This document shows, piece by piece, positions 11,235-57,069 of a stretch of 64,000 nt of DNA; the first letter of the stretch is position 1, and every line of letters begins with the position of its first letter. Under the pieces are notes generated by a model, which saw nothing but the letters and a program-made list of their open reading frames with translations, searched no databases and was not told where the DNA came from. The stretch covers positions 4,898,001 through 4,962,000 of the forward strand of contig NC_016946.1 of assembly GCF_000277125.1 (NCBI RefSeq), in the 5' to 3' direction. Origin of the DNA: Mycobacterium intracellulare ATCC 13950. GTDB taxonomy: Bacteria > Actinomycetota > Actinomycetes > Mycobacteriales > Mycobacteriaceae. The position numbers were made by a program, and so were the translations under genes.

Positions 11235-11270
11235 GCGAAAAGCGCTAGCACATGCGCTAGCGCTTTTGCG
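11235..11270. terminator. Bidirectional hairpin terminator
   Basis: AAAAGCGCTAGC (11238-11249) pairs with GCTAGCGCTTTT (11256-11267) around a 6-base loop, giving a 12-bp stem bounded by A and T runs. It lies between the convergent ends of the epimerase gene (11189) and hspR (11328), so it can end transcription from both sides. Confidence 0.85.
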
Positions 11271-11327
11271 AATGTTGTGTGCTCCGGAGACAGGAACCCT
11301 TGGGGCGCAAGACAAACTTCCCGACGA

Positions 11328-12901: not shown

Positions 12902-12950
12902 GTCGCGTCACCCCCTCACCTTCGGCGTTGCGTTGTGCTGATTGTGTGGT

Positions 12951-13588: not shown

Positions 13589-13592
<4 letters not shown>
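12951..13592 (-). CDS. grpE: Nucleotide exchange factor GrpE
   Basis: A 213-residue dimeric co-chaperone that releases ADP from DnaK. A disordered acidic N-terminus is followed by a long coiled coil (about 50-115: [21 protein letters not shown]) and the C-terminal beta-wing ([25 protein letters not shown]). The acidic Ala/Glu-rich C-terminal tail is usual in mycobacteria. The GTG start overlaps the dnaK stop by four bases (GTGA), indicating translational coupling. Confidence 0.96.
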
Positions 13593-15448
<1,856 letters not shown>

Positions 15449-42903: not shown

Positions 42904-42977
42904 GCCGATGTAGTTCAATGGCAGAACATCAGCTTCCCAAGCTGAATACGCGGGTTCGATTCCCGTCATCGGCTCCA
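42904..42977 (+). tRNA. tRNA-Gly (anticodon CCC)
   Basis: A full cloverleaf: acceptor arms GCCGATG and CATCGGC, D-arm with GTTCAATGGCAGAAC, anticodon stem TCAGC/GCTGA around loop TTCCCAA (anticodon CCC at 42934-42936), T-arm CGGGT-TCGATTC-CCG and encoded CCA at 42975-42977. Its 3' half is the attachment site of the integrated element; integration leaves the gene intact. Confidence 0.95.
42933..42977 (+). repeat. attL: 45-bp tRNA 3'-end direct repeat, left copy
   Basis: The 45 bases from the anticodon arm through CCA of tRNA-Gly recur exactly at 56483-56527. This is the classic footprint of a tyrosine integrase that uses a tRNA 3' end as attB and carries a matching attP. Confidence 0.93.
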
Positions 42978-43024
42978 GGATGACCAGGGCGGACCGTGGA
43001 ACGGGACGCTGTCGCCGAAGCGGC

Positions 43025-43044
43025 GGTCCCGTATCGGTCCCGTA
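43025..43044 (+). promoter_or_regulatory. Candidate integrase arm-type sites, left end
   Basis: Two direct copies of GGTCCCGTA at 43025-43033 and 43036-43044, an 11-base period, 48 bases inside the left att repeat. The same pair with the same period occurs near the right att (56319-56338). This fits arm-type binding sites for the N-terminal domain of the tyrosine integrase. Confidence 0.65.
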
Positions 43045-43051
43045 CCCGACG

Positions 43052-45514
43052 TCACGGCATCGGCAGCTGCGTCGCGATCGCCTGGCGGAGCATCTTCTCG
43101 CCCTCCAGCACCTCGTTGGCGAAACGCCGCAGCGTGTCCAGTCGGTCGAGCAGCGTGACGTACCGGGCGAGGTCGTCCGCCTTCTCGGGAACCATCACCG
43201 GCAGCGCGTTGAACGATTCCTGCTTGAACCGGTTCCGGCTCGTCTTGGTGGACCCGCTGGACTTCGCGTCCACCACGGACAGGTACTGCGGCGAGTTCAG
43301 CGCGTGGACCACGTACCGCATCACCAGGGTGGGTTCCGACACCTCGTCCCGTACACGGAAGGTCGGGAACTCGACGGACGCATACGCGCCGTCGCACTCC
43401 GCCGACACGATCCCGAATGAACCACGGAACGCAAACAGCCGGTTGTAGATCAAGGTGCCGGCAGCGAGCTTGTTCAGCCGGGCACCGCCCTTGATCTCGC
43501 GGCCCAGCTTGGACTCGCGGATAAACGATCCACCGCCCCACCACCGGACACCAGCCAGGTCGTACGTCTTGTCGGCCTCAGCGGCGACCGGTTCGCGCAC
43601 TTCCTCGAACAACTCGCCCAACTTCACGTTCCGGAAGTCGGACACCTCGTCCAGCACCTTGAGTTCGTCGCGGATGCTCTGCAGTTCCGCGTGCAGATTG
43701 CCGGCCACGGCCAGCACGGTCTCGTTGACCTCCTCCACCGGGGTGTCGGACACCGTGATGTGCGGCCGCCAGTAGAACTTCGGGTCCAACCGGTCCTCTA
43801 CCGGGCACGCCCAGACATTGACGCCCTCGATCTCCTTGCCCTGCAGCCACCGCCGATACTGCGCAAGAATCTCGGGCAGCTCATTCCCGGCGATCTCCGC
43901 GCCGTTGGGGGCATACCCCGAGTTGCGGCAGACAGCCATGAACGTCTCTTCGTCCTGCTGACCGTCGTCAGGCTGTTCCTTCTTCCGCAGGAACAAGACA
44001 GTGGTATCGGAGCGACCGCCGTAGCCCTCGAACGTCTCGGGCGGCAGGCTGATGAGGCCGAGCACCTCGGTGTTCTGCAGCACGTACTCCCGGATGTTGG
44101 CGGTGCTGGAGTTGTTGAGGATGCCGTCCATGATGATGATGCCGATGCGACCGCCCGGCTTCACGAGCCGGATGGTGCGCTCCAGGGCGAGCGCGGCGCG
44201 TTCGATCGACTTGCGTCCGTTCGACACGGTAAAGCTGCCGAGCACGTCCGTGTCCGTCTCGGCCGACCCAAAGGGCGGGTTGGTGAGGCAGACATCGAAT
44301 ACGTTGTCGCCCACGATGTTCTCGCCAGCGCCATCGTGGACATCCACGAAACCCGACTGCCGGAAGATGTGGCGCCCCGCGTCGCCGTCACCGTGCACCA
44401 CCATGTTCATGCGGCAAGCCAAGGAAGTCCGCTCGTTCCAGTCGATGCCGAAGATGCAGTCCTCGGCGAGGTGGCGCAGCGCGTCCTCCTTAGCCTTCTT
44501 CGACAACTTGGTCGAGTTGATCTGCCCTGCCGCGCGCCCGTGGTGGCTGATGAGAAACCCGCCGGTGCCGCTGAACGGGTCGATCACCTTGTCGCCAGGC
44601 CCCGGGTCGACAGCGTCCACGATGAACGTGACGACGTTCCTCGGTGTGAAGTACTGGCCCAAGCCACCGGTGAAGGTGTCGCCCAAGAAATGTTCGAACG
44701 CTTCGCCTTTCACATCGAAGCCGGTCTTGGACAGGTCGTACTTCTCGAACTGCTTGACCAACTCCCGCTTGGTCCGCTCGGACAGCTCGATCGTGGCCGA
44801 ATCGGTGAACAGACCCGAGTACTTCTTGGACTTCTTGGTCTCGTCGAAGATGGTGTCGAGGATTGAGACGCCCGCGCTCGCGAAGATATCGAACTGCTGC
44901 AAGCTGAACCGGTTCTTGCCGTCGCGCTCCTCGTAGAGCTTGGTGAACATAACCTTCGAGAGCTCATCGAACGCCTTCGTCGGGTCGTACCCCTCGTTGT
45001 TACGGATGACGTTGTGGCTGGCGCGGAGAATGCGCTTGAATTCCTCCACGTTCTCAACCCTGAAGGTTTCTTGTACCGCAGCAGCTTTCAACTGCTCCTG
45101 CTGATCCGGCTTCGCCGTCTTGGAAGCCAGCTTGATGGCCTCCTTCATGGCCGGCAGCCCGTCGGGCAGCAGGTCCTTCGACAACACGTTGTACGCCTTG
45201 GTGCCGCCGACGCTGCCGTTGTAGACGAGAGCCAGCGGGGCAATCGGGGTCAGCAGCCGCGCGTAGGACACCGCCTGGTCCCTGTCGCCTTCGGTGAGAC
45301 TCTCCTCCGGCCCCTTCGTCTCCACGACCACCAAGGGCAACGTGCGCGCGTCGTCGGCGAACACCACCGCGTCGGCAAAGATGTCCTTGGTCTTGCGGCC
45401 CTGCTTCGCCTTCAGCGTCTGGTTGTACGCAATCCGCTTCGTGTCGTACCCAAGCGCCTTGAGCACCTTCGGCAGGGCGTGGATCTTCACGTCCTCCTCG
45501 TTGTTGAGGATCAT
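43052..45514 (-). CDS. Single-chain restriction-modification enzyme (HsdR_N + HsdM + specificity domain)
   Basis: An 820-residue fusion. N-terminal about 110 residues: HsdR_N-like nuclease fold with a PD-(D/E)xK pattern (Asp-48 in ADAVV, then VVVETKG with Glu-65 and Lys-67). About 210-545: N6-adenine methyltransferase of the HsdM type, with GQYFTPRNVV, DPFSGTGGFLI (SAM) and the catalytic NPPF near 412-415. About 560-820: a target-recognition/HsdS-like half. This is a Type IIG/I-like one-protein system that could cut and methylate. The ATG at 45514 with GGGAG upstream is preferred to 45556. It is the last gene before attL, a typical cargo position. Confidence 0.82.
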   Translation of the reverse strand: MILNNEEDVKIHALPKVLKALGYDTKRIAYNQTLKAKQGRKTKDIFADAVVFADDARTLPLVVVETKGPEESLTEGDRDQAVSYARLLTPIAPLALVYNGSVGGTKAYNVLSKDLLPDGLPAMKEAIKLASKTAKPDQQEQLKAAAVQETFRVENVEEFKRILRASHNVIRNNEGYDPTKAFDELSKVMFTKLYEERDGKNRFSLQQFDIFASAGVSILDTIFDETKKSKKYSGLFTDSATIELSERTKRELVKQFEKYDLSKTGFDVKGEAFEHFLGDTFTGGLGQYFTPRNVVTFIVDAVDPGPGDKVIDPFSGTGGFLISHHGRAAGQINSTKLSKKAKEDALRHLAEDCIFGIDWNERTSLACRMNMVVHGDGDAGRHIFRQSGFVDVHDGAGENIVGDNVFDVCLTNPPFGSAETDTDVLGSFTVSNGRKSIERAALALERTIRLVKPGGRIGIIIMDGILNNSSTANIREYVLQNTEVLGLISLPPETFEGYGGRSDTTVLFLRKKEQPDDGQQDEETFMAVCRNSGYAPNGAEIAGNELPEILAQYRRWLQGKEIEGVNVWACPVEDRLDPKFYWRPHITVSDTPVEEVNETVLAVAGNLHAELQSIRDELKVLDEVSDFRNVKLGELFEEVREPVAAEADKTYDLAGVRWWGGGSFIRESKLGREIKGGARLNKLAAGTLIYNRLFAFRGSFGIVSAECDGAYASVEFPTFRVRDEVSEPTLVMRYVVHALNSPQYLSVVDAKSSGSTKTSRNRFKQESFNALPVMVPEKADDLARYVTLLDRLDTLRRFANEVLEGEKMLRQAIATQLPMP

Positions 45515-45541
45515 GCTGTCTCCCGTTCGTTCTGGAATCTG

Positions 45542-45641
45542 ATGGCAGCCTGCCATCGTGCGAACGGGTTGTCAAGCATGCGATCGGGTAGATCGCATGA
45601 GTTATTTTGGCTCTGTACGGCAGTGCGATCTCATGCATCGC
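45542..45641. promoter_or_regulatory. Operator-like cluster of inverted repeats before the R-M gene
   Basis: Three dyads in the 159-base gap between integrase stop and R-M start: ATGGCA-N3-TGCCAT (45542-45556), CATGCGATC-N5-GATCGCATG (45577-45599, perfect) and GCGAT-N7-ATCGC (45625-45641). The latter two share GCGAT half-sites, suggesting repeated binding by one dimeric regulator that controls R-M expression. No controller (C-protein) gene sits next to it, so the binder is unknown. Confidence 0.6.
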
Positions 45642-45673
45642 TACCTTTATCATGGGCGTGTCCTCGTCTGAGA

Positions 45674-47104
45674 TCAGGCGCGTCGTGGTAGTGGTAAGAC
45701 GTTTCCGGCGGGCTTGGCGATCCCTAGAGCGCCGAGCGCGGCCATGTTGCCGGTGTGGTCGTCGGTATTGATCAGGTGGGCGTAGACCGTCAGCGTCGTC
45801 TTGACGTCCCGGTGCCCCATCAACTCGGCAATGTCGATCGGCCGGATGCCCGCCGCGAGACACAAGCTGGCGTAGGTGTGGCGCAGCGAGTGGAATGACT
45901 GCTCGGTGTCCACCTTCGCGGTCGGCGTGAGCCTGTTGGCGCGCAACACCGCCGGTCGGTACACGGACTTGTAGAACGTCGCGTGGCGTAGCGGCTGGGT
46001 CCAGTCGAGCACCAACCGCTTCTCGGCGTCCTCCACGGTGAGACCGGCCAGGGCGTCGGCCTGCCGTCGCGCGCGGACCTTCGCGGTCGCGTTCGGCGCT
46101 GCCTCTTCCACACCCGTAGTGGCCGCTCCTGGTGCGCCGGGTGTCGCCCGCCTTCCCGTAGGCCGGGGCGTCGTCAGCCGCGTACCGGGGAACAGGGGTG
46201 CGGTCGGCTCGTCCCGGCGCGGGTGCTCGGCGAGGTAGTCCCGCAGCAACGCGGTCGTCTCGGCGGTCAATGGCACACGGCGGTAGCTCTGCTTGGTCTT
46301 GAGCGGGCCGTACTCGATGGCAGAACCCTTCGCGCGCGCGGCCTGCTCAATTCGCAGCACCCCTGGCTTCGCCGGGGCGTTCGGGTTCAGCGGCGGGTCC
46401 GGCAGTTCGACGTTCGCGATGGTGAGCCCGCCCAGTTCCGCCGCCCGCAAACCCGCCCACGCCGCGACGTGGACTAGGATGTTGTACGGCCAGGGCGTCG
46501 CGTCCACGAGCGCGGAAACCTTTGCGGGCGTGAGGAACATGGCCCGATCCACGACCACGCCGACTTGGCCGCCGTTAGTGCCGGTCTCGGTGGGGAGCTT
46601 GATGTGCACGGCGGGGCTCTTCGCCAGCCGGCCATCAACGACGGCCTGCTCCAAGACCATGCGGACGGTCCAGAACGCGTGCCGCACGGTAGACGGCTTC
46701 TTGCCCGCGTCGGTGAGCCGGTTGACCCACGCCTGGATGTACTCGCGGGTGATCTTGTTGAGCGGGTAGCTGCCGAACACCGCGTCAATACCGAGCGTCT
46801 TGCCGTCGCCGCGCCGGGTTGCGGCCGGGGCGAGCGCGTAGCGGTGGTTCTCGGCGTTGTTGCGGGTGTCGGCCTTGCGCGACTCCAACCAGATCGCCGC
46901 CGCGTCCCGAAACAGCATCTTGCCCTTGCCGGGGTCGAAGTCCATGCCCGTCAACGTTTCGGCGTCGGCCTTGGCGGCGAACGCCTTGGCGTCCTTGCGG
47001 GTGCGGAACCCGCCCTTGGTGCGCTCGGTGCCGTCGGGCGTGTACCAACGCACCACGTATGTTGTTGTACCGCTGGCGCGTACGCGCTTCTGAACGCTTG
47101 CCAT
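45674..47104 (-). CDS. Phage-type tyrosine integrase
   Basis: A 476-residue site-specific recombinase. An N-terminal arm-binding domain (about 1-55, RWYTPDGTERTKGGFRTRKDA) and a SAM-like core-binding domain (about 62-170) precede the catalytic domain with Arg-220 (GLRAAEL), His-405/Arg-408 (HSLRH), His-431 (LMGH) and nucleophile Tyr-441 (VYAHL). An insert of about 50 residues (about 305-350, Pro/Ala/Arg-rich) between catalytic Arg and HxxR is unusual. It should integrate the element at the tRNA-Gly 3' end, matching the att repeats. Confidence 0.93.
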   Translation of the reverse strand: MASVQKRVRASGTTTYVVRWYTPDGTERTKGGFRTRKDAKAFAAKADAETLTGMDFDPGKGKMLFRDAAAIWLESRKADTRNNAENHRYALAPAATRRGDGKTLGIDAVFGSYPLNKITREYIQAWVNRLTDAGKKPSTVRHAFWTVRMVLEQAVVDGRLAKSPAVHIKLPTETGTNGGQVGVVVDRAMFLTPAKVSALVDATPWPYNILVHVAAWAGLRAAELGGLTIANVELPDPPLNPNAPAKPGVLRIEQAARAKGSAIEYGPLKTKQSYRRVPLTAETTALLRDYLAEHPRRDEPTAPLFPGTRLTTPRPTGRRATPGAPGAATTGVEEAAPNATAKVRARRQADALAGLTVEDAEKRLVLDWTQPLRHATFYKSVYRPAVLRANRLTPTAKVDTEQSFHSLRHTYASLCLAAGIRPIDIAELMGHRDVKTTLTVYAHLINTDDHTGNMAALGALGIAKPAGNVLPLPRRA

Positions 47105-47109
47105 GGGTA

Positions 47110-47337
47110 TCAGCCCCTGCGCTCTCTGCGCCGGTACAAACGTGCGTCGCGTAGCTCATCGGCTAGGTAGTAGCCGACGTGGTGGGGGTAGTCGTCGCGC
47201 CCCTCGCAGAACTGAACCTTGTGCACCATGTCGCCCGCGTCGTTGCGCGTCTCAGTCACGGTGCCGACCTCCCCCGTGTGCGGGTCGCCGGGCATCACCA
47301 CGAACACGTGGGTGTTCGGAGGGTAGTAGTCGCTCAT
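47110..47337 (-). CDS. Small SH3-like element protein
   Basis: A 75-residue acidic protein (MSDYYPPNTHVFVVMPGDPHTGEVGTV at the start gives a beta-rich, SH3/KOW-like look). Its ATG overlaps the serine recombinase stop (ATGA), and its own stop lies five bases before the integrase ATG. It is therefore tightly coupled between the two recombinases and might be a directionality or accessory factor; that is inference from position. No homologue was recognised. Confidence 0.6.
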   Translation of the reverse strand: MSDYYPPNTHVFVVMPGDPHTGEVGTVTETRNDAGDMVHKVQFCEGRDDYPHHVGYYLADELRDARLYRRRERRG

Positions 47338-48041
47338 GCTGCTGTACCGTTCACGTTGGCGCGGCGCAGGATTCGCGCGACCGTTGCGCCGCACCACCGA
47401 CCACCCCGCTTGGTCGGGTGCCCCTCTGCGGTCAGCTCACGCGCTATCTCGTTCACCGGTACACCCTGCGTTGCAAGCGCTTTCATCTTGGCCAGGGCGG
47501 CTTGCTCGGCAGGCACAGGCACCAGCTGGCCCTTGGCGCTGCGGTACCCATAAGGCAGCGCACCGTGCGCGTAGCCGCCGCGAGCGGCCTTGGCTGCGCG
47601 GCCTGCTGCGAGCCGATCCACCGTCATCTCGCGGTCGTACTCGGAAATGGCGCCCATGATCACACGAACCAGCTTGCGCGACGGGTCTTTTGACTCGCCG
47701 TTGAGCATCTCGTGCTCGTTCTCGCGCGTCGACAAGACGATGCCGCCGAGGTCGGACAGCTTGCGTAGCAACAACTCCTGCACCATGACATCACGGGCCA
47801 GCCGGTCAAGTCGGGCGACGACCACGCCTTGCGCCTGCCCGCCCTTGACCAGGGCTGCTGCCTCGCACCACCCGGCCCGGTCGCGTAGCTCTGACGCGCC
47901 ACTGATCACGTCGGTCTGCCACGACACAACCTTGTGCCCACCGGCCTTTGCCCAAGCGCGTATCGCCGCGCTCTGCACTTCCGGCCCGTAAGCCTCCTGT
48001 TGGTGCGCGGACGACACCCTCACGTACGCGACTACTCGCAT
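47334..48041 (-). CDS. Serine recombinase (resolvase/invertase family)
   Basis: A 235-residue serine recombinase. Catalytic Ser-10 lies in YVRVSS, supported by Arg in VARLDRLARD, then the E-helix and IMGAISEYDREM. After about residue 150 come the start of a Recombinase domain (RGGYAHGALPYGYR) and a short HTH-like C-terminus (PVNEIARELTAEGHPTKRGGRWCGATVARIL). It is much shorter than large serine integrases, so more likely a resolvase or invertase than the element's integrase. GAGAGGAAC precedes the ATG at 48041. Its DNA site is unknown. Confidence 0.85.
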   Translation of the reverse strand: MRVVAYVRVSSAHQQEAYGPEVQSAAIRAWAKAGGHKVVSWQTDVISGASELRDRAGWCEAAALVKGGQAQGVVVARLDRLARDVMVQELLLRKLSDLGGIVLSTRENEHEMLNGESKDPSRKLVRVIMGAISEYDREMTVDRLAAGRAAKAARGGYAHGALPYGYRSAKGQLVPVPAEQAALAKMKALATQGVPVNEIARELTAEGHPTKRGGRWCGATVARILRRANVNGTAA

Positions 48042-48133
48042 ACTTGTTCCTCTCGTCAGGCCGCTGACCTGCGGCGTAGCTGAATACGGAGATAAAGCTA
48101 CGCCAGCACGGCACAAACGCTGGTACAAAGCTG

Positions 48134-48775
48134 CTAACGCTTGCGCCGTACCCGCACGACCCGCGCGGCCCGGTTCGCTGCGGCCGCGTCGGCGGTCGCG
48201 TCCTCCAGGGTCGCTAGCTCGCGGCTCGGCGGCTGCGCACGCTCGGCGAAGGACGGAGGTGCGCCGGTAGCGTTCGCACGCTCTCCGTCGCGCTCGGGCT
48301 GCGGTTCGGGGCCGTCCTCCACGACCTCCGCGTCCACGACCTCCATGGGCTCGTCGGCTTTGTCGACCGGGGCGGGTGGTGCCAATCCGCGCATGGCCGC
48401 GTGCTCGGCACGCGTAACGTTCGCGAAGTCGATGAGCATCTCTTCCCATGGAGCCTTTACTCCAACTTCGACTTCGGTCTTAGGGGCCATACCCGCGCGG
48501 TCCAGCGCGTCGCGAATAGCCTGCAAGGCAACGTTGTCCGCTACGTCGCCGTCGAGCGCGAAAGCGAGTAACCGCTGCACCAACACATCAGCAGCTTGGT
48601 CGAGTCTGCGTCGTGCGGCCTCGCGGACTTGGGGCGCAGAGCCGCCGTGGACCCTGCAAACGTTGGCTCCGCGAGCAGCCATGGCCCGGCACGGCTCGCC
48701 GTTCCGCTTCCGCGCTGTGCATCGGACAGCAGGAAGCACCCTCGATAGGTCGGCGCGTTTATAGGTCGGCATCAT
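48134..48775 (-). CDS. Terminase-small-subunit-like DNA-binding protein
   Basis: A 213-residue protein. The N-terminus has a zinc-knuckle-like C-H pattern (RCTARKRNGEPCRAMAARG followed by CRVHGGSAPQVREAARRRL) that is frequent in small actinophage proteins annotated as terminase small subunits, and a helical middle. The C-terminal about 90 residues are acidic and disordered. If it recognises a packaging site it could direct a helper phage's terminase to the element, as satellites do; this is inference. Its tandem ATGs (48775, 48772) overlap the stop of a small upstream gene. Confidence 0.6.
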   Translation of the reverse strand: MMPTYKRADLSRVLPAVRCTARKRNGEPCRAMAARGANVCRVHGGSAPQVREAARRRLDQAADVLVQRLLAFALDGDVADNVALQAIRDALDRAGMAPKTEVEVGVKAPWEEMLIDFANVTRAEHAAMRGLAPPAPVDKADEPMEVVDAEVVEDGPEPQPERDGERANATGAPPSFAERAQPPSRELATLEDATADAAAANRAARVVRVRRKR

Positions 48776-48912
48776 CGTTCTCCCGGTCGTGTTCGGTCCT
48801 CTGGCCAAGGCGCCCGACGCGGGTTACGTCTCGGGCGCGTTGGTATTCCACGTCGCGTTGGCTTTTGCGGCTCCCACCAATACGGTGGCGGTAGCCGGTC
48901 GTACGTGATCAC
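48772..48912 (-). CDS. Small Arg/Pro-rich protein
   Basis: A 46-residue frame starting GTG at 48912 with AGGAG seven bases ahead. It ends in a TGA that overlaps the ATGATG of the terminase-like gene. The product (ITYDRLPPPYWWEPQKPTRR near the start) is highly basic and may be a peptide for coupling translation. Support is the ribosome site and the overlap only. Confidence 0.45.
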   Translation of the reverse strand: MITYDRLPPPYWWEPQKPTRRGIPTRPRRNPRRAPWPEDRTRPGER

Positions 48913-48969
48913 TGCAATCTCCTGTTCTCTCTGTGTGGCTCGCGGTTCGGCCTCCGCGTCGCCGATTTC

Positions 48970-49192
48970 GATGTCCGGCTCGCGATGTCCGGCCCTATAG
49001 GCTCAGCCGGTGGGCCGGGGTTCACCCCGGCCACGCCACCCGGCGAAGCCCTGTCTGCCCAAGTCCGGCCCAGGTCCGGCGCAATGAGCCGGACATCAAA
49101 CGCACTGCTAGACACCATTTTCAATGTGCGGCTTGCAAGGGGTGGGCCGGACATCAGCCGGACATCGCGAGCTAACAAGCTCGATGTCCGGC
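48970..49192. repeat. Iteron array GATGTCCGGC (6 copies), candidate replication origin
   Basis: Exact copies of GATGTCCGGC at 48970-48979, 48984-48993 and 49183-49192, and of its complement GCCGGACATC at 49088-49097, 49146-49155 and 49157-49166. Two partial GTCCGGC copies lie near 49062-49080. The array sits in a 297-base non-coding gap directly downstream of the prim-pol/RepA gene. Iterons next to a replicase gene are the usual layout of a replication origin in plasmids and satellites. Some copies could equally be a repressor operator for the terminase-like operon. Confidence 0.7.
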
Positions 49193-49209
49193 CCAACTCC
49201 GGCTCGCGC

Positions 49210-51432
49210 TCAGTCATTTTCGTCGCCGTCCTGCTGTGAATCGGTCAGCCGAATCTTGCCGCTGGCACACTTCCAAACCTTCGCCTTTACCATCACCGTC
49301 TTGTCGCCGCGCCTACGCGGTACTTGGCCATCGGGGTCTTGTACGAGCAGCTGTGCGTTTTCAAGCTCCTGCCAATCAACGCGAAAGCTCTTCTCGTGCA
49401 CCTGATGGCTTTTCGCGAGCAATTCGATTGCATTGGTCTTGCTAGTGGCAGGGTTGGCTCGCACATACTCAAGAATCAGCCCCTGCCGTCCAGGTGACGT
49501 ATGCGCCTGGCTGGTGCCGTCCTTCTTCTCAGCGGTCACCGCTGATGCGACGTCCCATGTGATCTCGCCAACGTGGTGGCCGACGCCGTGGTTGAACGGC
49601 CCGAGGTTCCAGTCAATTTGCCATTCGGTACCGCCCCATTGACGACTATTGAACCCTGTGCGTAACCAGAACTCGCCTTCAGGCACGTTCGGGGGCTTGC
49701 GGTGGTACCGGGTAATCCAGCTATCGGCGTTCTCGGCCTGCCCGGCCATCGAGATGCTGTCTAGATCTAGCGATTTGGCTGTGCCGGTCGAGCGGTAGTG
49801 GTCGGTCAACAGTGACGTCGCGCCAGCGCACTCAGTACGGACAAACTTGTGGTATGCGTCGATGATCTGCCCACGCTGATACAGGTCACCCGCCTGCACG
49901 TCTCGCGGGTGGAAATTGTAAAAGCTCTCAATCAACACCAGTTCTGGTTGATACGTGTCTAGCAACCGCTTCACATCATCACGGAAGTTGTCACTGTCAA
50001 TCGGTGCGGCTCCGAACGCCGCCACAAGCGGAAACTGTGGGTCTCGCTGGATATCAGACAACTTCAACCCATACGCGCGGGCCATCCGATGCATGGTGCG
50101 CTGCACTGGTTCCCGTCCGCCTTCACCAACGATGTACAACACGACGCTTTGGTGGCGCACCGGGAACTCCTCACTGCGGTAGAGGTTGGTGCCGGTCGCG
50201 ACGGAGAACGCGATTGCCTGATTGTCGTGCGTCTTGAGTGACTTCTTGGGTCCGGCATTTACACCGAACGTGTCGCGACACAACACCTTCGCAATCAGGA
50301 ACTCAGTGTCAGGGACGTCAGCGGCCCATTCGCACGGCCCCAATACTCGGAACACCTTGTAGTCGTCGTTGGCCGTCGCCGGCCAAATCGAGTCGGGGTG
50401 CCAAATACCGCCCGGCGCCATTGCCTTCAGCGCTGAGCCAATCAACGCAAGCTCCTCAGCAGATTTCGCCCCTGCCAGCTGACCCGCATTAAGCCTCATG
50501 CGATCAAACTCGTCCTCTGCGACCTCGCGGGTCCCGCGGCCAGGTGAGTCCCACACCGCCTCAACAAACTCGGTTTTCAGCGCGCCGAGCGCCGTATTGG
50601 TACCGAGCAGCCCAGCTGCGCCATACTCCACGAGGTCACGCACGTGGCACAGCGTGGCGTCATGGCGACCGCCTTCCAGGCCGTTCACGTCGCGTATGGC
50701 GCGCAACATCAAGTCCCGCACCCCTACATCCATCACGCCGGTCGGCAGCGCTTTCAGCAGTTTTCGTGCAGCACCCACGCTTGCGAGGCCGCGCACCTCC
50801 TGCCCGTTGGCGTCACGCATCAACTCCAGCACGAGCTTGTCCGGTAGCTCAGTGCAGTCTTGTGGTCGCGGCGGCTCCCGCGACAGCTCGCCATCAGGCG
50901 CGTACCAATGCTCGGGGGTGCCGGTGTCGGGGTTGATGCCTACGTTCACATAACGGTGCCCCGCGTGAACAAGGTCAACACCAGCACCGAGATTGCTGCG
51001 CCAGTTCAGCCCCTTCGGTACGCGATATAACCGCTTCTCGCTGCCATCGGTTCTGTTGCGCAACGCCCACGTCTCAGGGAAGCGGCAACCTGCGCGGCCT
51101 TCCACTTCGTCAACTACCTCCAACGCCCGGCCCGCTGGGCGCTGCTTCTTGGCGTAGTTGTCGATGTCTACACACAACAGCCCATCCGTGAGATACAAGG
51201 CAGCATTGCCGTCGGGGTATTCACGCCGCCAAGTCTCAAGTTGTCCATGCGTTGGCAGTCGTGCATCGTGTCCTGTGAATCCAGTCGGGGGCGGCCACTT
51301 CTGCCCGTGAGGTAATGGCAATACGGACTTCCACCCTTGCTCAAGGTATATCTGCACCACATCGGAATAGCCTCCGACATAACTGGGCCGCTTCGACTTT
51401 CGACGGACGGGCTGCTCGGGTAAGCTAGGCAT
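49210..51432 (-). CDS. Prim-pol/RepA-type replication protein
   Basis: A 740-residue protein. The N-terminal about 220 residues form a bifunctional primase-polymerase (AEP) domain: YLEQGWKSVLPLPHGQKWPPPTG, catalytic pair in LLCVDIDN (about Asp-89, Asp-91) and HRYVNVG. A helical linker leads to a RecA-like RepA ATPase with Walker A AGPKKSLKT (about 393-401) and Walker B-like LVLIESFYN. The last about 100 residues are wHTH-like. Predicted to prime and unwind element DNA. The ATG at 51432 has AAGGA at good spacing; an in-frame ATG at 51486 would add 18 residues. Iterons lie just downstream. Confidence 0.8.
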   Translation of the reverse strand: MPSLPEQPVRRKSKRPSYVGGYSDVVQIYLEQGWKSVLPLPHGQKWPPPTGFTGHDARLPTHGQLETWRREYPDGNAALYLTDGLLCVDIDNYAKKQRPAGRALEVVDEVEGRAGCRFPETWALRNRTDGSEKRLYRVPKGLNWRSNLGAGVDLVHAGHRYVNVGINPDTGTPEHWYAPDGELSREPPRPQDCTELPDKLVLELMRDANGQEVRGLASVGAARKLLKALPTGVMDVGVRDLMLRAIRDVNGLEGGRHDATLCHVRDLVEYGAAGLLGTNTALGALKTEFVEAVWDSPGRGTREVAEDEFDRMRLNAGQLAGAKSAEELALIGSALKAMAPGGIWHPDSIWPATANDDYKVFRVLGPCEWAADVPDTEFLIAKVLCRDTFGVNAGPKKSLKTHDNQAIAFSVATGTNLYRSEEFPVRHQSVVLYIVGEGGREPVQRTMHRMARAYGLKLSDIQRDPQFPLVAAFGAAPIDSDNFRDDVKRLLDTYQPELVLIESFYNFHPRDVQAGDLYQRGQIIDAYHKFVRTECAGATSLLTDHYRSTGTAKSLDLDSISMAGQAENADSWITRYHRKPPNVPEGEFWLRTGFNSRQWGGTEWQIDWNLGPFNHGVGHHVGEITWDVASAVTAEKKDGTSQAHTSPGRQGLILEYVRANPATSKTNAIELLAKSHQVHEKSFRVDWQELENAQLLVQDPDGQVPRRRGDKTVMVKAKVWKCASGKIRLTDSQQDGDEND

Positions 51433-51507
51433 CACGGTCCTTCTGCTGCCAAGTTGTTGGTTCGTACCGCCCCGGTGGGTTGCCATCCCCGCCGGGGCAA
51501 CACTTTT

Positions 51508-51747
51508 CTAATGGGAGCCTTGGTATTCCGGCGCAACATAATTGCCCGGCTGTCGCCGTGACTCGACCCAATCCAGGGCATCCTGGCGTGACACGTAGTT
51601 GCCTACTCCAAGCCGAACGGGAACCAATTCCCTTCGGAGGAAGGCATATTTGATCATTCGCCGCGTGACCGGGTAACCCTGCTCCAGCAGGTATCGGTAC
51701 ACGCCATCCTCATTGAGGTTCGTGACCTTCATTGGGTCAACAGACAT
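51508..51747 (-). CDS. Excisionase-like HTH protein
   Basis: A 79-residue protein with a MerR/Xis-type winged HTH: VTRRMIKYAFLRRELVPVRLG followed by YVSRQDALDWVESRR, the typical helix-turn-helix, basic wing and C-terminal helix of HTH_17 proteins. GAGGAAAG precedes the ATG at 51747. Position just before the replicase suggests either excision control or regulation of replication. Confidence 0.7.
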   Translation of the reverse strand: MSVDPMKVTNLNEDGVYRYLLEQGYPVTRRMIKYAFLRRELVPVRLGVGNYVSRQDALDWVESRRQPGNYVAPEYQGSH

Positions 51748-51789
51748 GAACTTTCCTCTAAGTTCAGGCCCGCCAGGCAAATGCAAAAC

Positions 51790-51840
51790 GGGCGCACTTC
51801 AAAGCCCCGCACCGGTTGATGCGTTCGTTTGAGTGCGCCC
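51790..51840. other. Long inverted repeat in the gap between two element genes
   Basis: GGGCGCACT (51790-51798) is exactly inverted at 51832-51840, and pairing extends to CAAA/TTTG with one bulge, around a 24-base loop. It lies downstream of the 77-residue gene and before the excisionase-like gene (minus strand), so it may attenuate transcription or serve as an operator. There is no U-run. Confidence 0.5.
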
Positions 51841-51920
51841 GCCTAGGTCACTCGAAAATCGCCGAACCCGAACGGGTCCGGTACCGCTACCCTACGCCAT
51901 CGGTCGTAGCCGCGTCGGAG

Positions 51921-52154
51921 CTAACCGCCGAATGTATCTGCACCACTGAGCATTAAGTCCTCCAGGCGCATTTTCGTACGCGGCATCCTCCGCACGATCA
52001 GTGTCGCCTCAATCTCTTGTCCCTCATCGACAACCATCGCCGCCATGAGCTTCTGCAGTTCCTTCAACTGTCGCTTCGGCGGGTCTTGGCCGATTCTGCG
52101 TGCTTCAAAGGTCTCGGTTCCATCGGTGTCGTTGTAGTGACGGAAGGTCATCAT
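51921..52154 (-). CDS. Small element protein, unknown
   Basis: A 77-residue protein starting at the paired ATGs 52154/52151, which overlap the stop of the 46-residue gene upstream. It is beta-then-helix in appearance (FRHYNDTDGTETFEARRI, QLKELQKLMAAMVV). No motif was recognised. Overlapping start and stop in the minus-strand operon support it being real. Confidence 0.55.
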   Translation of the reverse strand: MMTFRHYNDTDGTETFEARRIGQDPPKRQLKELQKLMAAMVVDEGQEIEATLIVRRMPRTKMRLEDLMLSGADTFGG

Positions 52155-52291
52155 GCCTGTTGCACCACCGCGTCCGCGCTGAGTGCCTCTTGCAGAAAGC
52201 GCACCGCGCGGTCGCGGGGCAGCTCGCAATCATCCGCTAGCTCCAGCAGCTCCCCAAGCACCGCTAATGCCCGGCCCTCCCACATCCACAT
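52151..52291 (-). CDS. Small helical element protein
   Basis: A 46-residue protein, ATG at 52291 preceded by a near-ideal AAGGAGG ribosome site six bases away. Mostly helical (ALAVLGELLELADDC, RDRAVRFLQEALSA). Its TGA overlaps the next gene's ATG. Small proteins of this kind are common in phage early operons. Function unknown. Confidence 0.6.
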   Translation of the reverse strand: MWMWEGRALAVLGELLELADDCELPRDRAVRFLQEALSADAVVQQA

Positions 52292-52470
52292 CGTTGCCTC
52301 CTTGGCGTCGCGCCCGCAGGACCACCCTGCGGTCATACGCGCCATGTTGACAGGGAGCGCCGAAATGCGCGCGCTTTACAAACATGTGTTGGTTGTCAAC
52401 AACCGCATCCGCCCAGGTCAGGCCCGCCGTAGTTGCGACGCTTGGCGACTCGCCTCTGCCTTGTTGCAGG

Positions 52471-53172
52471 TCACGGCGTCGGTGTTGCGGCACTGCCGCT
52501 GTCGATCACCGCACCCCGTGGCAGGTCCACGCGGGCGTCTATCACGTGGGTCTTGTAGTTGTTGTCTGCGATCACGCCAGCCCGCTCTTCGCACGCGGTG
52601 CAGCAGCGGAACAACAACACGAACTGCCCCCGGTGAACCTGAATGAGCCGCGTCGTCCCGCCGCCGTAGTCGCTGACGTCGCGGCTGACCGGAGCGGTGC
52701 AGTTGTCCGCGATGTTCACGGTGCACCGCATCTCGTAGTCAGCGGGGTGCTGCCGAATGCTCGTGTCGTCGGTGTAAGCCTTGTAGTCGTTGATCTCCTG
52801 GGCGAGTTGCACCACCGATGTGAACCAGTCAACGCGATCAAGTCGGGTGTGCGGCCGTCCGACGTGGGCCAGTCCCGCCCCCACGGCCCACACCACGACA
52901 GCGTCATCCGGCAGCTGTTCCAGATCGGCCAAGTTGTTGGCGTCGTTGAGCCGGATGCGGTTGTCGGCTATGCCGTCTAGCAGCTCTTGCTTCGCTGACT
53001 TGGCCCGCTCCCACATCGCAGGACACCAGGCCGGGTCGAACAGCGGAGCGTTGTCGCGGCCATGTGCACCCGCTGTGATTCGCTCGGCGGCCAAGGCGGC
53101 TCCGGCAATTGGGTCATCGGGGTTGGGCGGATTGTCCATGCCGTACTTCGCCCTCAGTTCGCCCTGGTTCAT
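52471..53172 (-). CDS. Element protein with Cys-rich segment, unknown
   Basis: A 233-residue protein overlapping the HTH gene upstream by four bases (ATGA). It has a helical N-terminal half with MWERAKSAKQELLDGIADNRIRLNDA and a C-terminal half with Cys in RCTVNIADNC and FRCCTACEERAG that could bind zinc. No family was recognised. The 179 bases downstream, before the 46-residue gene, show no gene. Confidence 0.6.
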   Translation of the reverse strand: MNQGELRAKYGMDNPPNPDDPIAGAALAAERITAGAHGRDNAPLFDPAWCPAMWERAKSAKQELLDGIADNRIRLNDANNLADLEQLPDDAVVVWAVGAGLAHVGRPHTRLDRVDWFTSVVQLAQEINDYKAYTDDTSIRQHPADYEMRCTVNIADNCTAPVSRDVSDYGGGTTRLIQVHRGQFVLLFRCCTACEERAGVIADNNYKTHVIDARVDLPRGAVIDSGSAATPTP

Positions 53173-53426
53173 GCGCTTCTCCTCATCCGCTGCACGAAGT
53201 TGTAGAGGTCCACAGTCGAGTACCAGATGGCCCCGCTGATCTTGTAGCTCGGTAAAGTGCGGTCGTTCGTCGCCTTGGTCACGAGACCCATGCCGACGCT
53301 CGACAAACCCATCACGTCTCGATACCAGGCGACCGCACCGGCCTTGCCCTTGATGGTCGGATCATTCGACAGATCCAGTTTCGTAGTTGCAGTGGCAACC
53401 GGAGTCGCCACCATAACGCGCGCCAT
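53169..53426 (-). CDS. HTH/excisionase-like protein, first gene of the minus-strand operon
   Basis: An 85-residue protein with an HTH_17-like end (VAWYRDVMGLSSVGMGLVTK, then LPSYKISGAIWYSTVDLYNFV), similar in layout to Xis proteins: HTH, wing, then C-terminal helix. It lies at the divergent promoter region facing the capsid-like gene and heads the replication operon, so it is a candidate switch regulator. A second Xis-like protein is at 51508. Confidence 0.6.
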   Translation of the reverse strand: MARVMVATPVATATTKLDLSNDPTIKGKAGAVAWYRDVMGLSSVGMGLVTKATNDRTLPSYKISGAIWYSTVDLYNFVQRMRRSA

Positions 53427-53586
53427 TGATCGTCCTTTCGCGCAACGACATTCGTACTTAACCCGAGCCTATCCGCTACTACCCCGGCGTGTTGCCGGTA
53501 GACACACACCCCTCGTTAACGCTCAGCGCCCCAGCGCAATTCAGGCGTAGGGTCTCTCACAATCACATACAACTAGGTAGGCAACC
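53427..53586. promoter_or_regulatory. Divergent promoter region between operon and capsid-like gene
   Basis: A 160-base gap from which the replication operon runs left and the capsid-like gene right. It is more AT-rich than its surroundings, and AGGTAGG precedes the capsid ATG. Exact -10/-35 elements could not be assigned with confidence. Confidence 0.5.
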
Positions 53587-54729
53587 ATGACAACAAAATT
53601 CCGCATTTGGGGCAGCTCTGGCGGCAAGGGCGGGGTGAGCACCCACGGCGATGTCCTGGTCAATCAGACGGCCGATGGCGTTGATCTCAACGATATCTGG
53701 GCCGAGGTTCAAGAGGTTCTTGAGCTCTGGAACAAAGAGCGCAAGAGCGTCACCGACATTCTCAGCTACAAGACGGTCAACGTTGCCGACGCAGTCGCAC
53801 AGAGCATCTCATCGGACAGCTTCGAGGAGGCCACGGAATTTGGTGTCCCGCGTGCGATCCGACCGCCGAGCGACGTCCTGCGGCTTGGCTACTCGTTCAA
53901 GGACTACGACATCGCACTCCGTGCAACGTGGAAGTTCCTGCGCGAAGCCACCGCAGAGCAAATTACGGCGCAAGTTACCCGTGTGTTCGAGGCCGACAAC
54001 AAGCTCACAACTGGCTCAGTTCTGCGCCGATTGCTCGACCCCGCAACCCAACTCAACGAATGGGGTCATACTTGTTTTGGGCTTTGGAACGGTGACGGCA
54101 TGGTGCCGCCGCCCTATCTCGGCACGACGTTCGATGGCTCCCACAAACACTACCTCACCACCGGCTCAACAGTTCTCGATGCGCTCGATGTCGAAAACAT
54201 GATCAAGCACGTGACCGAGCACGGATACGGACTGTTCACTGGCTCGCAGTTGGTGTTGATCGTCAACCCCATCGACTTTGAAGCCTCAAGCATTGCGGCG
54301 TGGAAGGCTGGCGTGGACTACGGCGGCGCAACAGTCCCCAAGTACGACTTCATCCCGAGCGCGCTCATGCCCGCGTGGATCTCAAACGAAGAGATCCACG
54401 GCCCAATCCCCAACGCCGAGTACAACGGACTACAGGTGTGGGGCTCCTACAACAACGCCCTCATCATCAAGTCCAATTACATGCCGCGGTATTACGCCGC
54501 CTTGGTCGCTACCGGCGGGCCGAACAGCGACAGCAACCCGGTCGGCTTCCGCGAACACATCAACCCGGCCTACCAAGGGCTGCGACATATTCCTGGGCGC
54601 GGCCCGTACCCGATCCAAGAATCCTTCTTTGCTCGCGGGTTCGGCACCGGCACCCGGCACCGGGGCGCAGCGGTCGTCGTGCAGATCACGACCAACCTCA
54701 ACTACGCCCCACCGACGATTGAGACGTAA
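53587..54729 (+). CDS. Probable major-capsid-like (HK97-type) protein
   Basis: A 380-residue soluble protein without signal or membrane segment. The arrangement fits an HK97-fold shell protein: an N-terminal arm, a long helical stretch (EVLELWNKERKSVTDILSY, DSFEEATEFGVPR) as in a spine helix, a central P-domain-like region (GYGLFTGSQLVLIVNPID), and a C-terminal beta-rich end (FGTGTRHRGAAVVVQITTNLNY) as seen in actinophage capsids. No protease or scaffold gene accompanies it. The identification is by look and context, not by a diagnostic motif; another phage structural protein is possible. Confidence 0.5.
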   Translation: MTTKFRIWGSSGGKGGVSTHGDVLVNQTADGVDLNDIWAEVQEVLELWNKERKSVTDILSYKTVNVADAVAQSISSDSFEEATEFGVPRAIRPPSDVLRLGYSFKDYDIALRATWKFLREATAEQITAQVTRVFEADNKLTTGSVLRRLLDPATQLNEWGHTCFGLWNGDGMVPPPYLGTTFDGSHKHYLTTGSTVLDALDVENMIKHVTEHGYGLFTGSQLVLIVNPIDFEASSIAAWKAGVDYGGATVPKYDFIPSALMPAWISNEEIHGPIPNAEYNGLQVWGSYNNALIIKSNYMPRYYAALVATGGPNSDSNPVGFREHINPAYQGLRHIPGRGPYPIQESFFARGFGTGTRHRGAAVVVQITTNLNYAPPTIET

Positions 54730-54731
54730 CC

Positions 54732-55049
54732 GTGGCTCGCTACACGAGGTCAGCAGAGCCGTACCGCGACCCGCTACCGCCTCAGCCACCACGCTGCGGG
54801 GCACAGAACCCACTTCGTCTCGATTGCGAACAGGCCGGTGACCAAAGCACCGAGTTCTCATGGGGGCCAGGGCCAGTCGCGCCGCACCTCAATCGCCAGC
54901 CACCATCCGAAGGCGGCAAGTACATGCCGCGTGCGCCGCGCATCGACCCGCCAGACAGCAGCAACCCGTATGCGGTCGGTCCGCCCCGGCAGCACCGCAG
55001 GCCGCGCGACGAGGTCAAGGGCTACCCCGGTGAACAGGTGGCCGGATGA
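54732..55049 (+). CDS. Small Pro/Arg-rich protein after the capsid-like gene
   Basis: A 105-residue frame starting GTG two bases after the capsid-like stop. It is rich in Pro, Arg and Gln and predicted disordered. Its spacing suggests translational coupling to the capsid-like gene; a decoration, scaffold or head-associated peptide is conceivable. No homologue is recognised, and low complexity makes a chance frame possible. The following 221 bases, to the convergent HEPN-motif gene, show nothing further. Confidence 0.4.
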   Translation: MARYTRSAEPYRDPLPPQPPRCGAQNPLRLDCEQAGDQSTEFSWGPGPVAPHLNRQPPSEGGKYMPRAPRIDPPDSSNPYAVGPPRQHRRPRDEVKGYPGEQVAG

Positions 55050-55270
55050 GACGTGGCCAGGGTGGGGGTTACCAGCACCCGGCTACCCCGCCCTGGCCGC
55101 CTGCCTCGCCGCCAGTAGCGTGAGCTGCCCGCGCCGCGCGCACACGGATACGGGTGCGGTAGGCCGCCGGGGCGGCATACCCCTAGTCGGTCGCCGGGGC
55201 GGGTTGAGGGTTGGGGCACATTCCTCCCAGGTTGGCTGTTCGCGCCCGCCCCGGTTGCACACCAGCGGCG

Positions 55271-56248
55271 CTAGTTGACTCGCAACACAATCGGTGTCCA
55301 CGGGTGTTCGCCGACCTCAGCCACGCCTTGACTGTCGACGGCGATACCGCGGAACGACCGGTGACCGAGAGCCCAGCGCCGTTGCCGAATCTCGGCCAAC
55401 GACCGCCGCCGCCAACGAGCACCGTTCCATCCCGGTGGCGCTTCGCCGCCGGGTTGTCGGACCCAATCCGGCGTCAGGAACACTTCCTCGCCGTAGACCG
55501 TCAACTCGGCCACGTGCGCGTCGTATTCAACGCGCTCTGGTTGCATCTTCTCGTCAACCTTCTCCCAGAACCATCTGTAAAACTCGCGTACCGCTGCCGT
55601 GTAGCGGCCAATAATCGGCTGTAGGTCAATCGACTTGCCCTGCTGCTCAAGGTAAGTACGTACCTCTGCGTTCAGGCCGTCCCACTTCAATAGCGGCTCA
55701 ACATGCAGCCGGAACTGGAACTCCGCCATGGGCATCGTCTGGGAGAACTGCCACGCCGGGTTCAGATAAGGAAGGAACTTGTGCTGGGAATAGTTGCGTA
55801 GTTCTACGAGCAGCTTCGCCTCGTCTGCTTCGAACACGGCGAGGCGCTTTTTGGTGTACTCGCCGCGCTCGAACTCGGACAGCTGTTTACCAATGCTCGG
55901 CCAGATGTCGCGTAGGACTGCTCGCTGACCCGAGATGAGCGACTTCACCGAGCCGAGAAAGTTCGCGAGGAGTCGAGCCAGCTCGATGCCGAAGGGGTCG
56001 CCCACGTCGGGGTTGAACGGCTGGCTCTGGCCGATCTCGGGATACCGCCAAATGTGGGCCTGCAATTCCTCCGCGTTCTTGCTGAAGGCGTACGACGTGA
56101 GGTTCAAATCCCGCATCATCGCGATGACCTCAAACGCCCGCATCGCCATCAACATCGCCTGGCGCCGCTTGTACTCGGCAATCCACGGGTTGGTGTAGAT
56201 CGTCTCGGACGTTCCTTCGCCGACGTCCTCAACCGGGGCCTCGCTCAC
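55271..56248 (-). CDS. Cargo protein with HEPN-like R-x4-H motif
   Basis: A 325-residue, GTG-started protein that is mostly helical in its first 190 residues. At about 149-156 it reads ELRNYSQH, matching the HEPN RNase motif (Arg, polar residue, then His: Arg-151, Asn-152, His-156). HEPN domains act in toxin-antitoxin and anti-phage systems. It is the last gene before attR, outside the replication module, which is where satellites carry defence cargo. Lower GC in places than the flanks. A structural model would be needed to confirm the fold. Confidence 0.55.
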   Translation of the reverse strand: MSEAPVEDVGEGTSETIYTNPWIAEYKRRQAMLMAMRAFEVIAMMRDLNLTSYAFSKNAEELQAHIWRYPEIGQSQPFNPDVGDPFGIELARLLANFLGSVKSLISGQRAVLRDIWPSIGKQLSEFERGEYTKKRLAVFEADEAKLLVELRNYSQHKFLPYLNPAWQFSQTMPMAEFQFRLHVEPLLKWDGLNAEVRTYLEQQGKSIDLQPIIGRYTAAVREFYRWFWEKVDEKMQPERVEYDAHVAELTVYGEEVFLTPDWVRQPGGEAPPGWNGARWRRRSLAEIRQRRWALGHRSFRGIAVDSQGVAEVGEHPWTPIVLRVN

Positions 56249-56318
56249 GGAGCCAATTGTGCTGCCGCGCTATGACATCTCTCGGCGTGTCGCCGAACGT
56301 GTCGCCCATGTGTTCGAT

Positions 56319-56338
56319 GGTCCCGTAACGGTCCCGTA
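56319..56338 (+). promoter_or_regulatory. Candidate integrase arm-type sites, right end
   Basis: Two direct copies of GGTCCCGTA at 56319-56327 and 56330-56338 with the same 11-base period as at 43025-43044, 145 bases inside the right att repeat. This non-coding stretch (56249-56482) would form one arm of attP after excision. Further GTACCG-type repeats lie at 56360-56400. Confidence 0.65.
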
Positions 56339-56482
56339 GACGCAGCCGAACTGTGGGCGTACCGACGCCGTACCGGAGGCGTCCGCTAGCCGTACCGAAT
56401 TTGCATCTGACCAGTGCAAACACTGGCCCTCTTCAGCCCGCCTACCAGTGACTATCGCTCACCTGTTCGCACAGCGAAAATA

Positions 56483-56527
56483 CTTCCCAAGCTGAATACG
56501 CGGGTTCGATTCCCGTCATCGGCTCCA
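56483..56527 (+). repeat. attR: 45-bp tRNA 3'-end direct repeat, right copy
   Basis: An exact copy of 42933-42977 without the 5' half of the tRNA, so not a functional tRNA gene. It marks the right boundary of the element and is followed 36 bases later by the end of a truncated integrase gene of a different element. Confidence 0.93.
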
Positions 56528-56562: not shown

Positions 56563-57069
56563 CTAGGCCGTGTCAGTGTCACGGGATGTCACAACCCGAT
56601 TCAAAGTGTCACCAGCGGCCTTCAGCGCATCGTCCTGGGAATGGGGGTACAGCTTCATCGTGAGCGATGCGTCCTTGTGCCCGATCCACGCGGCGATCAC
56701 TGCGGCAGGCACCCCGTTCAAGTGCATCAGGGTTGCGCAGGTGTGCCTCGCAGCGTGAAGCTTGATATGGCGCACACCGGCGGCCTTCACGGCGTCGCGC
56801 CAGTATCGCGAAAGAACCGCAGGCGAGTATGGTTCGCCGATCTCGTTCGACACCACGTAGGTCCATGCGCCGCCATCGCGACCCAGGACCAGGCGTTCGG
56901 CTGCCTGCCGCCCCTTCGCAGCCTTTAGCACCGTCACCAGCCGATCCCGCAGCGGCAGGGTCCGCCGAGACATCGCCGACTTCGGATCGTTCTCCGTAGT
57001 CTTGCCGCCGGCATCCTCGATGGTCCACGTTGCACCTACCGAGCTGCCTTCATGCTCCGCACCGCTCAA
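56563..57069 (-). pseudogene. Tyrosine integrase, catalytic-domain fragment
   Basis: Only the C-terminal about 155 residues of a second phage integrase remain. From DPKSAMSRRTLPLRDRL the sequence carries HAARH (His/Arg pair), WIGH and the nucleophile Tyr in KLYPHS. The arm- and core-binding domains and the first catalytic Arg are absent. It differs clearly from the integrase at 45674. The break lies near 57020-57069, where a C-terminal fragment of another gene begins on the other strand. It is the relic of an earlier element at the same tRNA. Confidence 0.85.

Follow-up and report, generated by a model that had tools for sequence, protein, structure and literature searches.

A lone capsid gene in a tRNA-borne element of Mycobacterium intracellulare suggests a phage satellite equipped with its own shell protein and packaging address

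We analysed a 64-kb stretch of the Mycobacterium intracellulare ATCC 13950 chromosome (64,000 nucleotides, NC_016946.1 positions 4,898,001 to 4,962,000; here the window). It holds a mobile element of ~13.55 kb, integrated at a tRNA-Gly(CCC) gene. We read the element as an integrated phage satellite that would bring its own shell protein and its own packaging specificity, while a helper phage would supply the rest, and we give this reading a probability of roughly 0.6. An earlier note on the window had proposed a satellite. That proposal is supported by the gene set, by its recurrence at tRNA repeats, by purifying selection on the major capsid protein (MCP) and small terminase (TerS) genes, and by a narrow element length. 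The satellite reading itself is well supported; the proposed use of the lone MCP is less certain.

The element is bounded by identical 45-bp direct repeats, as the note had described. The left attachment site, attL (42933..42977, + strand), is the 3' part of the tRNA gene (42904..42977, + strand; ARAGORN and Rfam RF00005), and attR lies at 56483..56527 (+ strand). These are the only two sites in the window that match the att sequence with 14 or fewer mismatches. G+C content is 63% inside the element, compared with 69% in the part of the window left of the tRNA. The tRNA-Gly region was also detected in relatives.

Between the repeats lie genes for integration, replication and, apparently, packaging, most of them named in the note. 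The tyrosine integrase (45674..47104, − strand) matches PF00589 at 7e-13 and a PHROG integrase at 2e-56. A short serine recombinase of 236 amino acids (aa; 47334..48044, − strand) matches PF00239 at 3.5e-25; four of its relatives have a Resolvase domain, and its start is inferred within an open reading frame (ORF) open to 48449. The replicase (49210..51486, − strand) joins a Prim-Pol domain (PF09250, 1.5e-14) to an AAA domain (PF13481, 4e-9). Beside it, six exact copies of the 10-bp iteron-like repeat GCCGGACATC (48970..49192, either strand) mark a candidate replication origin, with no further exact copy in the window. The note had also claimed two Xis-like proteins, and this stands in part. 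The 92-aa helix-turn-helix candidate (51508..51786, − strand; cluster C9) and the 85-aa candidate (53169..53426, − strand; cluster C10) have relatives in 15 and 14 of 41 genus loci and have no Pfam match themselves; HTH_17 is matched by 4 of the 26 members of their joint set. No repressor (Stl/Rpr) was identified. When 14 element ORFs were compared with Pfam and 10 singly with PHROGs, no portal, large terminase (TerL), tail or lysis family was matched, in agreement with the note. The same scans returned no head maturation protease, connectors or HNH, of which diverged forms could escape.

The MCP (53587..54729, + strand) is of the Patience/Adjutor type. It matches PHROG 3990, "major head protein", at E=2e-104, which bears out the single capsid gene of the note. 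By sequence it also matches two solved capsid proteins, 8saj (E=8e-77) and 8giu, from Mycobacterium phage Adjutor and from Patience, as the accessible text of PMC10635136 identifies them. A model built from 35 family members has a mean predicted local distance difference test score (pLDDT) of 81.7. Its top structures are again 8saj and 8giu, with E values of ~1e-31 to 1e-33 (9e-33 for 8saj). This comparison, which the note had named as a check, returns a viral HK97 fold and not a non-viral one. MCP relatives are encoded in 152 of 50,697 phage records, all below 60% identity and at most 42.4% among the 40 listed. According to the same text, the shells of Adjutor and Patience are T=7 and also contain a minor capsid protein and gp4, an accessory protein (PMC10635136). 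The minor capsid family was found by profile search in no cellular locus. With two gp4-type queries, satellite matches were no stronger than E=0.09; these searches are insensitive, because Konstantine itself was the sole phage locus they matched. The MCP gene shares the replicase strand in L041, L052, L053, L054, L056 and L064; in the window and many other loci the two genes are on opposite strands. Judged by strand and not by a count on a tree, the MCP cassette has apparently been inverted more than once.

The predicted TerS (48134..48808, − strand) has a CCCH "HGG" zinc finger and a helical body. Taken alone, the terminase-small-like gene of the note is weak (PHROG TerS, E=0.003); in its family it becomes firm. 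We call the HGG protein TerS because of its phage matches upstream of TerL, a shared CCCH finger, the profile alignment and its TerS PHROGs; HGG_STG is matched as well. A profile made from 77 satellite HGG proteins only matched 16 of the 11,111 ORFs in 75 phage loci, 12 of them at E<1e-5. All 16 lie upstream of TerL on the same strand; 15 are within 3.3 kb of it or overlap it, and that of Onyinye is 7.7 kb away. The CCCH finger is present in seven of the eight phages examined (Patience, Konstantine, Troll4, Hawkeye, DrLupo, Predator and P3.1; not Onyinye), and in these eight records the phage counterparts are annotated "hypothetical". Profile comparison of satellite with phage HGG proteins by hhalign gave 98.9% probability (E=2e-17). 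Two PHROGs named terminase small subunit are matched by 21/30 and 16/30 satellite members.

A third gene travels with these two. p105, a 105-aa ORF (54732..55049, + strand), has counterparts in 64 of 97 cellular loci, and 63 of the 64 immediately follow the MCP gene in the same orientation. Its motif, SEFSWGxG...PPSEGGxY, occurs in 71 of 116 satellite loci. A stretch of 18 columns aligns with gp1 of seven phages at 86% probability (E=4.7e-6), in which Troll4 gp1 reads SEFSWGPGMHPHPD, and 16 other families reached 1.2% or less in the same comparison. The p105 profile had its best phage match in Konstantine gp1 at E=0.075, and a tblastn search with one satellite member found nothing in phages. 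As a pattern, the motif has one match in 11,111 phage ORFs, again Konstantine gp1, with 0.38 expected from shuffles. Kinship between p105 and phage gp1 is suggestive only. In phages of the Patience, Konstantine and Troll4 types, gp1 (L022 1-348, L228 1-351, L229 1-309) is the first gene; it is annotated hypothetical, has a conserved SEFSxG-like motif and lies near the TerS and capsid accessory genes. The hexamer-bridging capsid accessory protein, Patience gp4, was also considered as a counterpart of p105, and this was not supported (hhalign probability 0.2%).

The same gene set recurs elsewhere. The MCP is encoded in 51 of 198 genomes of the genus, at 60 places, fragments included. The ATCC 13950 genome itself holds a second lone-capsid element of 13,548 bp (L025 6035-19583) at a tRNA-Met gene, with an MCP 53% identical to the first. 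We fetched 40 genus loci of up to 20 kb and 80 loci from named genomes, and searched them by iterated profiles for seven virion families: TerL, portal, MuF, scaffold, minor capsid, major tail and tape measure. The 41 genus loci (window included) had none of them, nor did the stretches fetched for the 80 named loci. The same profiles picked up at least two families in 72 of the 79 viral contigs; of the other seven, five gave only the major tail protein and two were satellites. After removal of 24 repeats common to both cellular sets, with near-copies within the named set kept, there are 97 distinct cellular loci. None has any of the seven families, 77 have the HGG protein, and 65 have integrase and HGG protein together. 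A locus was labelled a satellite when it had at least one of integrase, TerS or replicase and no structural match.

These counts have their own scope. Among the 60 genus MCP places, 41 were examined and then four more, the 15 left out being mostly fragments. Twenty further stretches, most of them re-fetched, again held no virion gene. The scan of genome contigs kept 80 of at least 89 confirmed loci, and a distant prophage could be left out by it. When 89 unlabelled satellite ORFs were compared with PHROGs, no head or tail family was among the 25 of 49 matched families displayed, which were primase, helicase, methylase and unnamed families; the other 24 were matched by one ORF each. Named host records include Mycobacterium, Gordonia, Williamsia, Rhodococcus, Hoyosella, Dietzia and Pseudonocardia, and further Micromonospora, Nocardioides, Aeromicrobium, Microbacterium, Agromyces, Demequina and Quadrisphaera. 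The gene set recurs between tRNA repeats in many actinobacteria, where the note had suggested looking for the replicase-capsid pair.

The satellite capsids also form a lineage of their own. In a maximum-likelihood tree of 109 MCPs (those under 320 residues and near-copies above 80% identity were dropped, leaving 150 rows and then 109), a branch with 100% SH-aLRT support divides the rows. One side holds 61 satellite rows plus an unclassified one, which comes from a short Mycolicibacterium contig; the other holds 45 phage rows and two unclassified viral rows. The satellite/phage label changes once on the tree when unclassified rows are left out; with the three counted, the tally by group is two changes for satellites and three for phages. 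This was a quick tree with no bootstrap or outgroup, and the ancestral side is therefore not fixed. The note had named relatives that are pieces of one prophage as a case against its proposal; the relatives look otherwise, with the seven virion families in 0/97 loci and a separate MCP branch.

Purifying selection acts on the MCP, strongly, and on TerS. Pairwise dN/dS is 0.10-0.14 for MCP (four pairs) and 0.13-0.21 for TerS (three pairs). Single pairs gave 0.32 for p105, 0.24 for a conserved 233-aa protein and 0.37 for integrase. Some dS values exceed 1.2, which is near saturation.

Element length is narrow. Both ends were found for 49 elements, taken from 40 of 118 loci (five near-copies dropped) and from 14 of the twenty further stretches; the other six stretches had no good repeat or held a locus already counted. 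Without six short, damaged elements of 5.3-9.1 kb, the remaining 43 have a mean length of 12,695 bp, a standard deviation (SD) of 722 and a range of 11,096-14,031. In this set 15 of the 43 rest on 18-29-bp repeats, L250 rests on a repeat without a tRNA, and the window element was entered 44 bp too long. The parts vary more than the whole, with SDs of 954 bp for integrase-side cargo, 974 for the core and 1,002 for capsid-side cargo. Shuffling parts among elements gave a mean total SD of 1,686, and 0/20,000 shuffles were as tight as observed. With the capsid-side part alone shuffled, the counts were 0/20,000 for all 43, 6/20,000 without ten edge-integrase elements and 1/20,000 within those ten. 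Such compensation can look stronger than it is when elements are related to one another and when the fetched stretches are limited. The narrow length suggests a packaging limit near 14 kb. If capacity scales as T^1.5, with T=7 for 65-71 kb, a T=3 shell would hold 18-20 kb and a T=4 shell 28-30 kb. A satellite shell below T=7 is expected, perhaps T=3 or T=4. In the ten edge-integrase elements (L050, L055, L062, L063, L099, L100, L108, L124, L126 and L141), the integrase is near the very edge and cargo is on the capsid side; all are at tRNA-Arg or tRNA-Val genes.

The likely helper can be narrowed from the same comparisons. Nine phage records have the satellite-type MCP at 37-44% identity (9/9), and none of the nine has a tyrosine or a serine recombinase domain. 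The Patience portal was found in 0/198 genus genomes by a query that found it in 7/7 phage records. With no recombinase domains and no portal, there is no sign that Patience-type phages lysogenize the genus, and the only integrated copies of the capsid family seen in the genomes covered belong to satellites. Phage clusters D and H are virulent, and this, like the recombinase and portal results, fits Patience-type phages being virulent. Many were isolated on laboratory strains of Mycobacterium smegmatis or Gordonia, and capsid structures are solved for two. The kinship of MCP, TerS and perhaps p105 therefore points to phages with Patience-type capsids as helpers, and virulent phages of this type are probably the helper class. 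Microbacterium phages such as Cinna, which has an HGG protein, were considered as sharing the MCP and were rejected. The annotated capsid protein of Cinna is a 621-aa "hexamer protein", and no satellite-type MCP is marked in its region.

From these genes we infer how excision, packaging and use of the helper might proceed. Infection by a virulent phage with a Patience-type capsid would lead the element to excise by its integrase and Xis-like proteins, and the prim-pol replicase would then copy it from the iterons. MCP and TerS would be made from the element's own genes. TerS would act with the helper large terminase to select satellite DNA. The MCP would assemble on the helper portal and scaffold into a smaller shell, which would hold ~14 kb and exclude the 65-71 kb helper genome, and helper tails would complete the particle. 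p105 may aid shell assembly or packaging. The cargo slots, one with a restriction-modification-like gene here, may serve host defence. We see about even odds for a wider proposal, that these elements form a separate Actinomycetes-wide satellite class. Its "shell plus address" kit of MCP, TerS and probably p105 would have parted once, long ago, from the kit of virulent Patience-type phages and been kept, and its small capsid, with a fixed capacity of ~14 kb, would nucleate on the helper portal and scaffold, all but shell and address being taken from the helper.

Several points weigh against the satellite account. Excision, replication and particle formation are predictions from the gene set. 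An MCP without scaffold, portal or protease is not known to assemble with those of a helper. Among the 79 viral contigs there was no free satellite; the two satellite matches lie in contigs of 55 and 62 kb and are presumably host-derived. Four of the 16 TerS profile matches are weak (1e-3 to 1.3e-2), and 15 of the 31 phage loci with more than 1.2 kb upstream of TerL have no TerS match. The TerS model is poor (pLDDT 67.7) and matched no solved fold. Size compensation is also weak in the 16 elements from wider fetches, where 1,027/20,000 capsid-side shuffles were as tight.

Other uses of the lone MCP have to be weighed against a separate small shell. Satellite MCP could mix into helper capsids and alter their size, with packaging still through the satellite TerS. 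The lack of an own scaffold or portal and the 37-44% identity to the helper class would suit such mosaic capsids. The satellite PLE redirects helper capsid size with the protein TcaP. In the source texts as available, the size-redirecting proteins of known satellites, Sid of P4 (PMC10690885) and that of PLE (PMC10945586), are scaffold-like and not full MCPs. The MCP described here is of full length, strong purifying selection acts on it, and ~40% identity would make co-assembly less likely; we consider mosaic capsids unlikely. Less likely again is a defence island, in which MCP and TerS would poison an infecting phage at its assembly or packaging stage and the element would stay unpackaged. 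Defence-type cargo does adjoin att, and the helper-type phage was not seen as a prophage in 198 genomes. However, poisoning alone does not require the tight element length, and integrase, Xis-like proteins, replicase and iterons are all kept.

The remaining alternative, that these are decayed prophage remnants in which a capsid gene was kept by chance, is highly improbable. Damaged loci do exist, among them the six short elements, L047 with its MCP in two pieces, and partial MCPs. Yet the same gene set is kept across ~40-92% MCP identity, with an intact MCP at dN/dS ~0.1 on one separate branch, and the portal of the class is absent from all 198 genomes. Compared with these alternatives, a satellite with its own shell protein and packaging address is the reading we prefer. 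If true, it fills a gap between phage-inducible chromosomal islands (PICIs) that reshape capsids and capsid-forming PICIs (cf-PICIs) with a whole head module, as a satellite that replaces just the shell protein and the packaging address. Because the helper class is concrete and has two solved capsids, direct study of how one protein sets capsid size would be possible. With the capsid gene in about a quarter of genus genomes (51/198), the elements may matter for mycobacterial phage resistance and gene flow.

The other genes of the element are mostly small or variable. A 95-aa ORF (47110..47397, − strand; cluster C12) has relatives in 8 of 41 loci, window included, and no Pfam or PHROG match. 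A 102-aa ORF (51921..52229, − strand) has no Pfam match. The conserved 233-aa satellite protein (52471..53172, − strand; cluster C8) is in 13 of 41 loci. The element ends carry variable genes. Beside attR, a 325-aa ORF fills a cargo slot (55271..56248, − strand), with no confident match in Pfam, PHROGs or PADLOC (PHROG 12680, E=0.0017). Beside attL is an 834-aa single-chain restriction-modification-like protein (43052..45556, − strand). Pfam gives it HSDR_N, an N6 methylase and a specificity-like C-terminus, and PADLOC gives MTase_I (3e-77) and Specificity_I (3e-12). A further match, at E=1.5e-72 and well below the NCBI cut-off, is to MAD2, a methyltransferase in the MADS defence system. Among ten large integrase-side cargo ORFs, picked by hand, five have PADLOC matches: restriction-modification, GmrSD-type, TIR, HipA-like PDC-M03A and a weak LeoBC. 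The 834-aa gene fits the same cargo slot.

A second island sits in tandem at the same tRNA; like the 834-aa gene and p105, it is absent from the note. In the same genome, a third att copy with one mismatch is found ~9.1 kb to the right of attR, and the island runs from 56528 to ~65574 in window numbering (L284), with G+C of ~57%. It opens with a C-terminal tyrosine integrase fragment (56563-57069). It also encodes a KAP-family P-loop NTPase (58268-60478) with a PADLOC PifA match at E=3e-57, likely a phage-exclusion gene.

The element has relatives among known satellites and differs from each. SaPI-type PICIs have no MCP of their own and reshape the helper capsid. The element is not a canonical PICI, because it has its own MCP; its att sites, integrase and replication module, with an origin suggested by the iterons, are PICI-like. 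The available text on SaPI-type PICIs gives int, xis, pri-rep, ori and sometimes terS, with accessory genes at the end or beside int (PMC6092414). A cf-PICI carries MCP, protease, portal, connectors, TerL, TerS and HNH, as far as the source text extends (PMC10690885). Like a cf-PICI, which borrows its tails, the element is integrated and has its own MCP and TerS. Here MCP and TerS alone were found, with TerL or portal in 0/97 distinct cellular loci. It is not a cf-PICI, because large terminase, portal, protease and connectors were not found; by analogy, it resembles a cf-PICI cut down to shell and address. Mulch and Flayer, satellites of virulent Streptomyces phages, are likewise actinobacterial and have their own capsid genes and virulent helpers; unlike the element, they have their own TerL, portal and scaffold and, in the portion of text at hand, no obvious replicase (PMC10690885). 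Virulent helpers are known for PLE (PMC11389934, accessible text) and for Mulch/Flayer.

Patience-like phages (Patience, Konstantine, Troll4, Onyinye, Terapin and others) share the MCP family (9/9), a TerS homologue upstream of TerL and, in seven, a gp1 motif in common with p105. They differ in having full 65-71 kb genomes and no recombinase domains. A literature search, outside which most subscription journals fell, returned no paper linking Patience-type capsids to satellites. The closest precedent is the work of Abad et al. 2023, whose text, as far as accessible, defines candidate Mycobacterium PICIs by an integrase and an MCP in one region, phiRv1/phiRv2 included (PMC10654092). The element has both and is therefore a candidate Mycobacterium PICI by that definition, so the hint in the earlier note that its gene set is unrecorded does not hold. 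The three Abad examples with tyrosine integrases lie at tRNA genes, and some of the candidates have replication and terminase genes. Induction and transduction of these candidates by mycobacterial phages were left to be determined in that text (PMC10654092). Their two-gene definition takes in highly diverse capsids, whereas here one capsid lineage is followed through the Actinomycetes together with its TerS, replicase and companion ORF, and is linked to one class of phage. Set against the accessible text of that study, what is new is a single capsid lineage spanning actinobacteria, together with its TerS, a length limit and a probable class of helpers.

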